Below are positions 2,174-40,318 of a stretch of DNA of 64,000 bases, one piece after another. Both the position numbers and the translations under genes were made by a program. The notes beneath the pieces are model-generated. The model saw only the letters and a list, made by a program, of their open reading frames with translations. It was not told the DNA's origin and searched no databases. Numbering within the stretch: position 1 is the stretch's first letter; every line of letters begins with the position of its first letter. This stretch comes from Urbifossiella limnaea (GTDB taxonomy: Bacteria; Planctomycetota; Planctomycetia; Gemmatales; Gemmataceae): the NCBI RefSeq assembly GCF_007747215.1, contig NZ_CP036273.1, positions 6,246,322 to 6,310,321 on the forward strand, read 5' to 3'.

Positions 2174-4216
2174 ATGCCCGGCCCCCCACTCCGCGACGTG
2201 CTCCGCCGGTTCCCGCCGGCCCACGACGGCGCGGACCGGCCCGACGCCGACCTGATCCGCCGCTACGCCGCCGAGCGCGACGAGGCGGCGTTCGAGGCGC
2301 TCGTGCGCCGGCACGGGCCGATGGTGCTCGGGGTGTGCCGCCGCGCCCTCGGCGGGCACGACGCCGAGGACGCCTTCCAGGCCACGTTCCTGGTGCTCGC
2401 CCGCAAGGCGGGGGCGCTGCGCGACCGGGCCGCCGTTGGCAGCTGGCTGTACGGCGTCGCCGCGAACGTGGCCCGCCGGGCGCGGGCGCGGATCGGCCGG
2501 CGGCGCGAGTGTGAACTCGTCGCCGACCCCCTGCACCACCCACCCATCGACGGCTGGCGCGACGCCGTCGCCGTCGTGGACGACGAGTTGGGCCGGCTCC
2601 CCGCGAAGTACCGCACGCCGATCGTGGCCTGCGCACTCGAAGGGCAGACGATTCGGGAGGCGGCGCTCGCGCTGGGTTGGCCGCAGGGCACCGTCGCCAC
2701 GCGGCTCGCACGCGGCCGGGCGTTACTGGCGGCACGGCTGGCGCGCCGCGGGGTCGCGGTCGCAGCGGCACTGGCGGCGTTGGGTCCCGTACCGGTGACG
2801 GCGGAACTGGTGGCTCGGGCGGTGCGGGTGACGGCCGGGGCGGTCCCGGCCGCGGTCCTGGCGCTCACGAACGAGGTCACGCGCGGCATGTTCCTCACCA
2901 AACTCAAGGCCGTCGCGGCCGTCCTGCTCGCCGCCGGCGTCGGCGTCGCGGCCGCCACCGTTCAACCGCCCGACGCCCCACCGAAGGCCGACCCGCCGGC
3001 CGCGAAGCGCGAGGCGACCGCCGCCCGCAAGCTGATCGAGCGACTGCACGCGTTGAAGCCGAAGGGCGGCGGCGAGTGCCTGGACGACGACAGCGGCGCG
3101 GTGCTGCGCGACCTGATCCGCCTCGGCCCGGCCGCCGTCCCCGACGTGGTCGCCGAGCTCGACGCCACCACCGACCCGTTCCTGCTCCGCTGCCTCGGCT
3201 ACGCCGCCCGCGGCATCGGCGACAAGCGCGTGGTGCCGGCTCTCATCCGCGCGCTGCCGAAGACGTGCCTGCCGAGCGCCAGCGACTACGGCAACGTCTC
3301 GAACGACCCGGAGCTGTTCGCGTTCCTGAAGGAACACGCCCACGACAAGGTGAGGATCGGCGACCACTACGCCTTCGGCCGGCCGCTCACCGAGTTCCGG
3401 TCGGCGCTGAAGGTGCTGACCGGCACGACGCACGGCGAGTCCGAACTGAACTTCGCCTCGCTGAGCGGGTCGGCCCGGCAGCAGGCACTGCAGCGCGAGC
3501 AGTTCCACCGCTGCGCCGCGCGGTGGGCGGCGTGGTGGGACGCGAACTCCCGCGACCTCGTGGCCGACCCTGCGTACCGCGCGTCCGGCTACAAGGCGCC
3601 GCCGGCCGCCGCCCTGCCGCCGCCGCCGGCCGAGTTCCCGCACGGGCCGCGGGCGAAGTTCGGTGGTGGGATTTCGGGCGGCGTGCTGGAGTCGGCGCGG
3701 GCGGCCGGGGCGGGGGCCGTGTTCAAGGATTTGGACACCGGCCGCGAGGGACGGATGCCGGCGCACCTCCGTGCCGCCGCGGGCCGGCCCGATCGGCTCG
3801 ATGCCATCGCCGCGTGGGCCGCGGGTGAGGGCTACGACCTGATGTGTACCGAGGACGGCCCCGCGACCGAGCCGCACTACGTGATCCGCGGCCTGGGCCT
3901 GACCGCGTGGGAAGTCGATGTCGGTCGGCGCGGCACGCTCGCGGCGGAAGTGAAGGCCGACGGGCGGTTCGAGATGGGCCGGCCGGCGGGGGCGCTGCTG
4001 GCGCCGTTCGACGCCAAGGCCGGCCGGCACGCGATCACCGAGCCGGGGCTGTTCCTGTTCCGCACGCGGGAGGGCGGCTACGGCTGGCTGTTCGTCGGCG
4101 CTGAGGTCCACGACAACACGCTGCAGCCGGGCGGGGCAGCCGGCGGCGACCTGGAACTGAGCCCGGTGGCGTTCCAGAAGGGCCGGCGGTACGGGTACAC
4201 GCTGGTGTGGGAGTAG
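2174..4216 (+). CDS. ECF sigma factor with transmembrane anchor and large C-terminal extension
   Basis: A 680-residue protein. Residues about 35-105 are sigma-70 region 2 (DEAAFEALVRRHGPMVLGVC, then DAEDAFQATFLVL and GSWLYGVAANVARRARA). Residues about 135-190 are region 4 with a helix-turn-helix (REAALALGWPQGTVATRLARGR). One hydrophobic helix follows at about 244-262, then some 415 residues that should lie outside the cytoplasm. The first part of that extension is HEAT-like (AAVPDVVAEL, KRVVPALIRAL); the rest is unrecognised. Membrane-tethered ECF factors with C-terminal extensions are a known planctomycete speciality, so anti-sigma and sensor roles may be built into the one chain. There is no separate anti-sigma gene beside it. 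Start at ATG 2174. Confidence 0.88.
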   Translation: MPGPPLRDVLRRFPPAHDGADRPDADLIRRYAAERDEAAFEALVRRHGPMVLGVCRRALGGHDAEDAFQATFLVLARKAGALRDRAAVGSWLYGVAANVARRARARIGRRRECELVADPLHHPPIDGWRDAVAVVDDELGRLPAKYRTPIVACALEGQTIREAALALGWPQGTVATRLARGRALLAARLARRGVAVAAALAALGPVPVTAELVARAVRVTAGAVPAAVLALTNEVTRGMFLTKLKAVAAVLLAAGVGVAAATVQPPDAPPKADPPAAKREATAARKLIERLHALKPKGGGECLDDDSGAVLRDLIRLGPAAVPDVVAELDATTDPFLLRCLGYAARGIGDKRVVPALIRALPKTCLPSASDYGNVSNDPELFAFLKEHAHDKVRIGDHYAFGRPLTEFRSALKVLTGTTHGESELNFASLSGSARQQALQREQFHRCAARWAAWWDANSRDLVADPAYRASGYKAPPAAALPPPPAEFPHGPRAKFGGGISGGVLESARAAGAGAVFKDLDTGREGRMPAHLRAAAGRPDRLDAIAAWAAGEGYDLMCTEDGPATEPHYVIRGLGLTAWEVDVGRRGTLAAEVKADGRFEMGRPAGALLAPFDAKAGRHAITEPGLFLFRTREGGYGWLFVGAEVHDNTLQPGGAAGGDLELSPVAFQKGRRYGYTLVWE

Positions 4217-37370: not shown

Positions 37371-37652
37371 TCATCCCGCGTCCGCCCCGACCGGGTCACC
37401 CCACTTGTCGTACTCCTGGCCGCACTCGGCGCAGGTGGCTCCGCCCCATAGCATCTGCCGCCGGTTCGCCGGCTTCCGCACCACGGGCGCCGGCTCGCCG
37501 CAGTTCGGGCACTCGATCGGCCGCGGGTTCACGCCCCACTTGCCGCGACGGCGGACGGTGTCGCGCACGACCAGTGTTCCGAGGCCGAGCAGGCCCAGGA
37601 ACAGCGTGCCGACGACGACCATCACCACCACCATCGCCATGTCGTCGCTCAC
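37371..37652 (-). CDS. Small membrane protein with zinc-ribbon motif
   Basis: About 93 residues from a GTG at 37652 (or 37655), chosen because GGAGGG lies 5-8 nt upstream; a longer ATG reading would begin inside a hairpin. One membrane helix (MVVVMVVVGTLFLGLLGLGTLVV) is followed by a cytoplasmic domain with CPNCGEP and CAECGQEYDKW, two CxxC pairs that can bind one zinc. Function unknown. Confidence 0.65.
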   Translation of the reverse strand: MSDDMAMVVVMVVVGTLFLGLLGLGTLVVRDTVRRRGKWGVNPRPIECPNCGEPAPVVRKPANRRQMLWGGATCAECGQEYDKWGDPVGADAG

Positions 37653-37671
37653 CACCGGCCCTCCGGAAACG

Positions 37672-37704
37672 CCGACGCCCACCCGTTTTCGGGGTGGGCG
37701 TCGG
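37672..37704. terminator. Perfect 13-bp stem-loop upstream of the zinc-ribbon gene
   Basis: CCGACGCCCACCC (37672-37684) and its exact complement (37692-37704) flank a 7-nt loop containing TTTT. It lies just upstream of the zinc-ribbon start. Because it precedes rather than follows a gene, it may be a leader structure. Confidence 0.5.
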
Positions 37705-38050
37705 GATGGGGTATGGGCTACCGCCGGGGTCGGGGAAGTAATGGGCGAGTAGGACGAACTTCAACCCAACCCCGGCGGGGTTCCGAAGGCGAACCGGAAC
37801 CATTGGATCAACAAGAACCACTCCCCCCGTGTTCGGTGGGAGGTGATTTCTGGGCAAAAGGGCGATCATCTTGCGATGCCAATGGCCAAAGCACGAGCAA
37901 TGCCGCAGCTGACGATTTTTCCGAAATTGATCGCAACTAGATATGAAAATGTGACTTATGCCGTCGCTCCCCTCGCAGCTGCCGGACATGGCGGTGTCGG
38001 AAGACCCGACAGACAGGGTGTCGGTGTCGGAATTTTCGGCGTCGAGAAAT
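37705..38050. other. Gene-poor, AT-richer intergenic stretch
   Basis: No convincing coding region is seen on either strand. GC content falls visibly, especially around 37850-37960 (for example AGATATGAAAATGTGACTTATG). Several GTGTCGG units occur at about 37994-38025. The stretch leads directly into the promoter at 38051 and may hold upstream control elements. Confidence 0.5.
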
Positions 38051-38079
38051 TTGACTCTGCGGGTCGGGGCGAGTATGAT
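38051..38079 (+). promoter_or_regulatory. Near-consensus sigma-70 promoter
   Basis: TTGACT (38051-38056) and TATGAT (38074-38079) are separated by exactly 17 nt. This is one of the best matches to the housekeeping consensus in the window. The predicted start of transcription is about 38086, one base before a large hairpin. Confidence 0.7.
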
Positions 38080-38085
38080 TCCTTT

Positions 38086-38149
38086 AGACCGGCCGCGGCT
38101 TCCCGACTGAATGGGCGACAGTCAGGGAGTCGGCGGCCGGTCCTTTTTT
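38086..38149 (+). ncRNA. Candidate ~64-nt small RNA or transcription attenuator
   Basis: The region begins at the predicted transcription start. An outer 10-bp stem (38087-38096 with 38133-38142) encloses an inner stem of 11 positions (38099-38109 with 38119-38129, one mismatch and one G-U) and a 9-nt loop. Six T residues (38144-38149) follow immediately. This is the form of an intrinsic terminator, so transcription would end after about 64 nt, giving a stable hairpin RNA, unless read-through is allowed into the small ORF at 38319. No known RNA family is recognised. Confidence 0.5.
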
Positions 38150-38318
38150 GCGCCCGTTCGGGAGCGCGAACTTCGGCAGAATACACCGGTTGCGGCAGTT
38201 CGACGGCGCACGTCCGCGGGCGACAATCTGCATCTGTGCTCGCAGCGGCACCGGTCGTGCATTGCCCTCGGGTGCCGGCCGCCGCGAGGGCGCCGGCGAC
38301 CCATCGCACGAGGGCCGA

Positions 38319-38444
38319 ATGATGCCTCTGGCCGCACGCCTCGACCGCGACGAAAACCTGCCGATTCCCACGGACATCGTCACGGACGACACCGGGCTGC
38401 ACGACCTCGGCGACCTGTGGACCGACCTCGGCGGGAGCGACTGA
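38319..38444 (+). CDS. Small acidic 41-residue protein (hypothetical)
   Basis: The ORF opens with a double ATG (38319 and 38322) preceded by GAGGG at 38310-38314. It encodes an acidic peptide, MMPLAARLDRDENLPIPTD followed by a DLGDLWTDLGG end, with no membrane segment. A perfect terminator-like palindrome follows 7 nt after the stop. The arrangement of promoter, leader, ribosome site, ORF and terminator supports a real small gene, but no homologue is known to me. Confidence 0.5.
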   Translation: MMPLAARLDRDENLPIPTDIVTDDTGLHDLGDLWTDLGGSD

Positions 38445-38450
38445 ACCACG

Positions 38451-38478
38451 AAGCCCGGGGACCGCGGTCCCCGGGCTT
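38451..38478 (+). terminator. Perfect 28-bp palindrome followed by T-rich bases
   Basis: AAGCCCGGGGACCG and its complement form a perfect palindrome ending CTTT, then CTTG. It comes 7 nt after the small ORF stop and shares its core with the palindrome at 35132. Confidence 0.65.
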
Positions 38479-38539: not shown

Positions 38540-40318
38540 TCAGCCGTCCAACTCCTCCTGCAACTCCAGCCAGCGCTCCTCGGCCGGGTCGAGTTTTGCG
38601 GTGAGCGCCGCCACCTCCTCGTGCAACCGCAGCGCTTCGGCCGGGTTCGTAGTCTCCATGAGCTTCGCGTTCGCGGCCCGCTTCTGCTCGTCGAGCAGGG
38701 CGATGGTCTTTTCCAGCGTCTTCATCTCCTTGCGGACCTCCTTCTCCCCCCGCCGCGCCGCCCGCGCAACCGGCCGGGCCTTCGCCACCTCCGCCGGCGC
38801 CTTCACCTTGCCCACGGCCGCCTCGCGCTCGCCGGCGTCCACTTCCTTCTCGACGCGGTCGAGGTAGTCGGCGTACCGGCCCGGGTACACCACCACGCGC
38901 CCCTCGCGGACCTCGATCACGCTCGTCGCCACCCGGCCGGCGAAGTGCCGGTCGTGGCTCGTGAACACCACCGTCCCCTGGTACGCGATCAGCGCGTCCA
39001 TCAGCGCCTCGACCGTGTCCACGTCCAGGTGGTTCCCGGGTTCGTCGAGCACCAGCACGTTGAACTCGCCGAGCAACAACCCCGCGAGGACGAGCCGCGC
39101 CCGCTCGCCGCCGGACAGCACCGGGATCGGCTTCTCGACGTGCGACTTGCGAAACAACAGCGCTCCGGCGACGGCGAGGACTTCCTGCTCCGTCCGCCCG
39201 CGCCCCTTCGACCGGAGGTAATCGATGACCGTCCAGTCGCCCGGGAGCGACGTGTAGACGTGCTGGGCGTACACGCCGACCTTGCAGCCGTGGCCCCAGC
39301 GCACGTCGCCCTTCAGCGGCTTCAGCGACTCGACGACCGTGCGCAGGAACGTCGTCTTCCCCTGGCCGTTGTCGCCGACGACGGCGACGCGGGTGCCGTG
39401 GTCCACTTCCAGGTCGATGCCGCTGGCGATGGCGCGCTCGGGGTAGCCAATGGTCACGTCGCGGCAGCGCAGGGCCGCCCCCTTGCGCGCCTCCACCCGC
39501 GGGGCGCGGATGCTGGCCGTCGGCTCGTCCGACTCGATCTCGACCGTCTCCAGCTTCTCGAGCGCCTTGGCCTTCGACTGCGCCAGCGCCGCGGTGCTGG
39601 CGCGGGCCTTGTTCCGGGCGATGAAGTCTTCGAGGTGCTTCCGCTTGGCCAGGATGCCGGCGTTGGAGCGCTCGTCGTGCTCGCGGCGCTCCCTCTCGAA
39701 CTGCAGGAACGCATCGACCTTGCCGGGGAAGCTGGTGAGCTTGCCGCGGGCCAGGCCGAGGGTGTGGGTGCAGGTGGCGGCGAGAAACGCCCGGTCGTGC
39801 GAGACGATGAGGCACGCCGCGCGGAAGTCGCGGAGGAAGTGTTCGAGGAGAATCTGCGTCCGCAGGTCGAGGAAGTTCGTCGGCTCGTCGAGCATCAGCA
39901 GGTTGGGCTCGTGCAGCAGCAGCGCCGCGAGCTTGAGGCGCGTCTGCCAGCCGCCGGACAGCTTGGCGACGGGGCCGTCGAGGTAGCTACCCTTGATCTC
40001 GAACCGGCCGGCGACTTCGCCGCAGCGCCAGTCGGGCTGCTCGCTGTCGCGCATGAGGAAGTCGATGGCCGTTTCGCCCGGCAGGAACGGGTCGTGCTGG
40101 CGGAGGTACCCGAGGCGGAGGTTCGGGTGTCGGAACACCTCGCCGGCGTCGAGTTCCTCCTCGCCGAGGAGAATGCGGAGGAGGGTACTCTTGCCGGCGC
40201 CGTTGCGGCCGATGAAGCCGACCTTCACGTCGTCGCCGATGGTGGCGTCGGCGTCGTCGAGCAGAATCTGGTCGCCGTAGTGTTTGGACGCCTTGGTGAG
40301 CTGCAGCAGGGTAGCCAT
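38540..40318 (-). CDS. ABC-F family ATPase
   Basis: A 592-residue soluble protein with two ABC domains. Walker A motifs are GRNGAGKST (37-45) and GDNGQGKTT (about 315-323). Signature motifs are KLSGGWQTRLKLA and VLSGGERARLVLA. Walker B motifs are LLMLDEPTNFLD and VLVLDEPGNHLD. A charged linker with KRKHLEDFIARNKARAS lies between the domains and a coiled-coil tail ends the chain. ABC-F proteins bind ribosomes to relieve stalling or protect against antibiotics; Walker B in the second half has EPGNH rather than EPTNH. No transport domain is present. Confidence 0.93.
   Translation of the reverse strand: MATLLQLTKASKHYGDQILLDDADATIGDDVKVGFIGRNGAGKSTLLRILLGEEELDAGEVFRHPNLRLGYLRQHDPFLPGETAIDFLMRDSEQPDWRCGEVAGRFEIKGSYLDGPVAKLSGGWQTRLKLAALLLHEPNLLMLDEPTNFLDLRTQILLEHFLRDFRAACLIVSHDRAFLAATCTHTLGLARGKLTSFPGKVDAFLQFERERREHDERSNAGILAKRKHLEDFIARNKARASTAALAQSKAKALEKLETVEIESDEPTASIRAPRVEARKGAALRCRDVTIGYPERAIASGIDLEVDHGTRVAVVGDNGQGKTTFLRTVVESLKPLKGDVRWGHGCKVGVYAQHVYTSLPGDWTVIDYLRSKGRGRTEQEVLAVAGALLFRKSHVEKPIPVLSGGERARLVLAGLLLGEFNVLVLDEPGNHLDVDTVEALMDALIAYQGTVVFTSHDRHFAGRVATSVIEVREGRVVVYPGRYADYLDRVEKEVDAGEREAAVGKVKAPAEVAKARPVARAARRGEKEVRKEMKTLEKTIALLDEQKRAANAKLMETTNPAEALRLHEEVAALTAKLDPAEERWLELQEELDG

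Follow-up and report, generated by a model that had tools for sequence, protein, structure and literature searches.

The CsrB/CsrC and RsmY/Z RNAs are longer transcripts that repeat a short exposed motif and titrate the global regulator CsrA, and the sponges SroC, 3'ETS-leuZ and the RNAs targeting Vibrio Qrr, whose genes use sigma-54, pair with a small RNA and lift its action. Most known sponges of small RNAs are pieces of mRNA or tRNA precursors with a single site. To our knowledge, post-transcriptional control in the Planctomycetes is almost unknown territory, and a literature search covering mostly papers outside subscription found no paper describing small RNAs in the Gemmataceae or either of the two RNAs reported here. 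The nearest regulatory logic is that of the enterobacterial GlmY/GlmZ-RapZ system, in which the sigma-54-driven decoy GlmY protects its constitutive partner GlmZ by titrating RapZ (PMC7073468).

In a 64,000-nucleotide stretch of the Urbifossiella limnaea genome (hereafter, the window), we find two divergent candidate RNA genes, RNA-1 and RNA-2, which we lean towards reading as a small RNA and a sponge RNA devoted to it under separate regulation, the pairing between them being inferred from complementarity. RNA-1, about 64 nt long and under a sigma-70-like promoter of constitutive type, would consist solely of a terminator hairpin showing the invariant loop UGGGCGA, and would act in trans via that loop. 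At type-I loci, including the one in the window, RNA-1 would be partnered by a divergent RNA-2 under a sigma-54 promoter, showing UCGCCC(A) motifs, as few as one or two and as many as 18, in single-stranded positions. Activation of sigma-54 polymerase by an enhancer-binding protein would lead to synthesis of RNA-2, which would then capture RNA-1 by loop-loop and loop-to-linker pairing and relieve its action. The comparative evidence supports two conserved RNAs, two promoter types, a sigma-54 box at a fixed place and an excess of exposed anti-loop motif; from it we infer transcription, the pairing of RNA-1 with RNA-2, the role of RNA-2 as sponge rather than target, an activator and controlled genes.

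Like GlmY and GlmZ, the two RNAs would form a regulatory pair with the decoy under sigma-54 and the partner constitutive; however, GlmY is similar to GlmZ and what it titrates is a protein, whereas RNA-2 bears no relation to RNA-1 and contains its complement many times over. RNA-2 shares with CsrB/CsrC and RsmY/Z the repetition of a short exposed motif, but the titrated partner proposed here is a small RNA and not the CsrA protein, and the repeated unit is UCGCCC(A), with no sign of the GGA core that recurs in the hairpin loops of CsrB and RsmZ. Where the known sponges of the SroC and 3'ETS-leuZ kind mostly have one site, RNA-2 would have as many as 18 and a gene dedicated to the purpose. There is a real chance that RNA-1 and RNA-2, taken as small RNA plus sponge, represent a new architecture.

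RNA-1 was delineated by folding and by covariance models (R1 and R3) as a small hairpin RNA with its own intrinsic terminator at 38086-38149 on the plus strand (64 nt). A promoter-motif scan placed a -35 box, TTGACT (38051-38056, plus), and, after a 17-nt spacer, a -10 box, TATGAT (38074-38079, plus), ahead of it. This promoter is one of only two such sites on both strands of 10 kb, with 0.2 expected from shuffled sequence. Folded from 38086, the RNA forms a 22-bp hairpin broken at two points by small interruptions (38087-38142, dG -40.9 kcal/mol) whose stability was equalled in 0/200 dinucleotide shuffles (z = -5.5), and it closes with six T (38144-38149, plus). Both the promoter and the 64-nt unit of hairpin plus six T had been proposed by the first-pass annotation, and both are present where it put them. 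The apical loop, AAUGGGCGAC (38110-38119, plus), is near-invariant in the family alignments, with consensus GAnUGGGCGAC. The 3' end of RNA-1 is that of a classical intrinsic terminator, but no Rfam 15 family fits: a search over the window returned none at gathering score, and the best sub-threshold matches were not credible. A search for tRNA and tmRNA genes was likewise negative.

Paralogues of RNA-1 are found at positions 4397690 and 3124347 of the window's own 7.8-Mb genome, together with a truncated one at 4393174, and congeners hold further copies. The first-pass annotation had looked to compensatory changes in the stem as a check on its reading, and these are plentiful in paralogues and orthologues alike. 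Two-sided changes affect 18/19 pairs over 60 aligned sequences, with 95.8% of cells paired and 298 two-sided cells against 80.7 in shuffles (0/500 reach the observed value) and 45-83 in slid controls, figures that lean slightly because the alignment was fitted to the model and contains one reverse-strand row. A free alignment of 19 copies agrees, with two-sided changes in 10/19 pairs. The stems vary freely in sequence, whereas the loop GAnUGGGCGAC barely does. Of 72 members, 53 have TAnnnT at -11 to -9 (equal windows further upstream, 1-8), 44 have TTG at -33 to -35 and 62 have a T-run after the hairpin.

The hairpin might instead be a mere REP-like or mobile DNA palindrome, or a bare terminator, with no RNA gene behind it. 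Its multicopy, dispersed occurrence and the truncated copy (G000:C1:4393174) would suit such an origin, which we nevertheless regard as scarcely credible given the single fixed -10 position, the T-run, a strand-specific GU bias, covariation of the stem independent of sequence, and conservation of the loop. The fixed -10 and -35 elements, the T-run, the covarying stems and the retained loop argue, on comparative grounds, that RNA-1 is a conserved structured small RNA gene and not a DNA repeat. A mobile origin was rejected as well, with no match in plasmids, phages or viral contigs.

Covariance model R1, built from 19 copies, detected RNA-1 in 28/59 relatives and in 4/294 genomes of the wider phylum, of which one is the window's own and three are marginal. 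The loci L099 and L100, matched only marginally by R1 and without the conserved loop, were excluded. The broader model R3 extended RNA-1 to 83/95 Gemmataceae genomes and 38/39 genera, with up to 13 copies per genome, and this retention points to a basic function. The exact window-type pattern was found at 15 places in 84,980 species genomes, and all named records are Gemmataceae or Planctomycetota.

Several local arrangements were seen within the family. An RNA-1 subtype with an extra small front hairpin lies, in ten genomes (L073, L085, L089, L090, L091, L095, L096, L102, L104 and L118), directly upstream of a gene that, on our own reading of its sequence, resembles truD (tRNA pseudouridine synthase); this conserved place may mark an ancestral copy or a leader. 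Tandem double hairpins, with the conserved loop in both, are present in other genera (L116, ~4038-4165, minus; L124, ~4050-4180, minus). At L067, L069, L070 and L081, a convergent gene for a small secreted-looking protein (…DDAQRAxWRLERQGRDAxIEV…) is located just downstream of RNA-1.

Comparison of the regions upstream of window-type RNA-1 copies revealed a second conserved block, 190-450 nt upstream. This block, RNA-2, starts on the minus strand 26 nt past a sigma-54-type box (TGGCAC-N5-TGCT), which lies 179-199 nt from the RNA-1 start and in many copies matches 9-10 of 12 consensus positions. Sigma-54 is in wide use among Planctomycetota, and its -24/-12 consensus is TGGCAC-N5-TTGCT (PMC12316311). 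On the strand opposite RNA-1, boxes with at least 9/12 matches are 55 times commoner at a distance of 175-200 nt from it than elsewhere on the same strand (p = 5e-13, a value that ignores the kinship of the copies), and none was found on the other strand within that slot. In the window, the putative box, CGGCATTGCTCGTGCT (37890-37905, minus), scores 7/12 and precedes the structured partner RNA at 37710-37879 (minus), whose start is placed from the -12 box and whose core spans 37801-37710. The window copy folds with z -3.3 and shows no clear T tract, and a strong palindrome follows it at ~37672-37705. The first-pass annotation had overlooked this second RNA, upstream on the opposite strand (~37879-37710, minus), where the chief interest of the locus lies.

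The RNA-2 fold comprises several hairpins and a terminator-like final helix, which in most copies runs into a T-rich tail. Two-sided changes were observed in 12/23 pairs across 14 copies. Since GU cells outnumber AC cells on the minus strand (23 vs 7, p = 0.005), RNA-2 is assigned to that strand, and the comparison indicates that it is a conserved structure on the strand opposite RNA-1. A plus-strand reading of the upstream RNA, with CsrB-like GGGCGA repeats, was rejected on three counts: the sigma-54 box, 3' ends that are T-rich in most copies, and the minus-strand GU:AC ratio. Searches with an RNA-2 model (R2) located the RNA in only about five genera. RNA-1 occurs in nearly all, suggesting that it has an older role without RNA-2. 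In a set of 29 RNA-2 copies with three further complete genomes, RNA-1 lies upstream on the opposite strand in 25. Copies with no RNA-1 beside them (L139, at G000:C1:1971759, L126 and L144) still have sigma-54-like boxes. At L079, a sigma-54-like box 187 nt upstream of RNA-1 (minus) is followed by a Flp-pilin-like ORF in place of RNA-2.

This geography bears on a different division of labor, in which RNA-2 is the regulated target and RNA-1 silences or matures it, or acts on transcripts from the same sigma-54 promoter. In its favor, the divergent layout resembles antisense control pairs, and at L079 the box at the same distance leads into the Flp-pilin-like gene and not into RNA-2. We nonetheless consider it improbable: no conserved ORF was found in RNA-2, free-standing copies exist, and many repeats per molecule suit titration better than single-site control.

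The reading of RNA-2 as a sponge draws on its complementarity to the RNA-1 loop. In the window, UCGCCCAUU (37740-37748, minus), in the loop of the RNA-2 3' hairpin, is a 9-nt perfect complement of the RNA-1 loop, and a second anti-loop motif, UCGCCC, is located at 37860-37865 (minus). A longest complement of 9 nt was matched in 1/200 shuffles at this locus. Longest-complement and duplex-energy tests of the RNA-1 loop against RNA-2 were not significant for most loci, where the longest complement is unremarkable because RNA-2 is C-rich. With its 7/12 box, two UCGCCC motifs and missing T tract, the window RNA-2 is a weak example.

The number and exposure of the sites, and not the longest match, carry the argument for the predicted pairing. 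UCGCCCA, the complement of the loop heptamer UGGGCGA, occurs 22 times in 14 RNA-2 copies against 0.61 in shuffled sequence (0/1000 shuffles, a p-value overstated because the copies are related), and 39 times against 1.0 expected over the 29 copies with three further complete genomes. The sense motif UGGGCGA was not found in RNA-2 copies. Within RNA-2, UCGCCC/CGCCCA has an unpaired probability of 0.73, compared with 0.27 for other GC-rich hexamers, so that, as would be expected of a sponge, an exposed complement of the small RNA's loop is present above chance (22 vs 0.61; 39 vs 1.0). Gemmata sp. IIL30, outside the model set, has 10 copies of RNA-1 and 7 of RNA-2; in this genome the RNA beside RNA-1 contains 17 UCGCCC and its sigma-54 box lies at 189 nt, and a second RNA-2 contains 15; among the three further complete genomes (Gemmata sp. 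IIL30 group), single copies have 18 and 13. UCGCCC is absent from about a third of the 29 copies, indicating that not every RNA-2 requires the repeats. Genome-wide clusters of triple TCGCCC were dropped as a means of finding targets, as they gave too many coding-region matches; those of G008 looked like coding or simple repeats.

The copies of RNA-2 without repeats, and the retention of RNA-1 in genera where no RNA-2 was found, would fit another scheme, in which the RNA-1 loop is a protein-binding hairpin, of CsrA type or coat-protein type, with a general protein partner. UCGCCC would then bind another partner, and the two RNAs would share a regulatory region and remain unpaired. We judge this rather unlikely, although it deserves consideration, because the repeats match the invariant loop exactly as its complement, are unpaired, and have been multiplied in an RNA encoded next door.

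For the favored small RNA and sponge, an activator site can also be proposed. Inverted repeats of TGTCGG/CCGACA lie between the two divergent promoters at 37995-38030 and form a candidate site for an enhancer-binding protein. These motifs number 23 in 14 type-I inter-promoter regions, compared with 1.1 in shuffles, and may bind the sigma-54 activator.

We put forward tentatively, as a conjecture with nearly even prospects, that lineage-wide 64-nt loop-only small RNAs, together with a sigma-54-controlled repeat-array sponge of up to 18 sites, constitute a main layer of post-transcriptional control in the Gemmataceae. If so, bacteria would possess an equivalent of the multi-site microRNA sponge. 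A gene devoted to a sponge and carrying one anti-loop site many times over would be unusual among them. The presence of RNA-1 and RNA-2 in cultured Gemmata makes the system testable.

Downstream of RNA-1, a 41-codon ORF, MMPLAARLDRDENLPIPTDIVTDDTGLHDLGDLWTDLGGSD, starts with ATGATG at 38319-38444 (plus), with the double ATG that the first-pass annotation had described, and is a neighbor outside the RNA system. That annotation had offered either a small stable RNA or an attenuated small-protein gene. The first half is strongly upheld by comparison across dozens of genomes, where the promoter keeps its position, the stems covary and the terminator is retained, which points to an RNA gene. The second finds no support, as other RNA-1 copies do not have the ORF, and relatives of the ORF occur at places in which no RNA-1 was found. 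An attenuator whose read-through yields the small protein would fit the order of promoter, terminator, ORF and terminator in the window and the conservation of the 41-aa protein. It is very improbable, since RNA-1 copies elsewhere are not followed by a 41-codon ORF, congeners carry the ORF where no RNA-1 was found, and an alternative conserved antiterminator is absent.

The 41-aa protein, for which Pfam returned no match, has relatives of 33-47 aa with the C-terminus LWxDLGGSD in 5/6 genomes of the genus. At these congener sites no RNA-1 was found and the ABC-F neighbor is absent. Because congeners keep the ORF with neither RNA-1 nor ABC-F beside it, the ORF appears to be a small-protein gene in its own right, expressed from signals of its own, and not the purpose of the hairpin. 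The LWxDLGGSD proteins form a new family, found only in the genus of Urbifossiella limnaea at about one per genome. Beyond the ORF, an ABC-F gene (38540-40318, minus; Pfam ABC_tran) runs convergently, and on the other side of the locus a small CxxC-containing membrane protein with no Pfam match is encoded downstream of RNA-2 (37371-37682, minus).

The perfect palindrome at 38451 reported by the first-pass annotation was recovered as a 28-bp, terminator-like element at 38451-38478, common to the small ORF and the convergent ABC-F gene. The genome contains about 30 near-identical copies of it, and it is therefore not specific to the RNA-1 locus but a common terminator-like repeat. We note it as either a REP-like element or a bidirectional terminator repeat specific to the genus.
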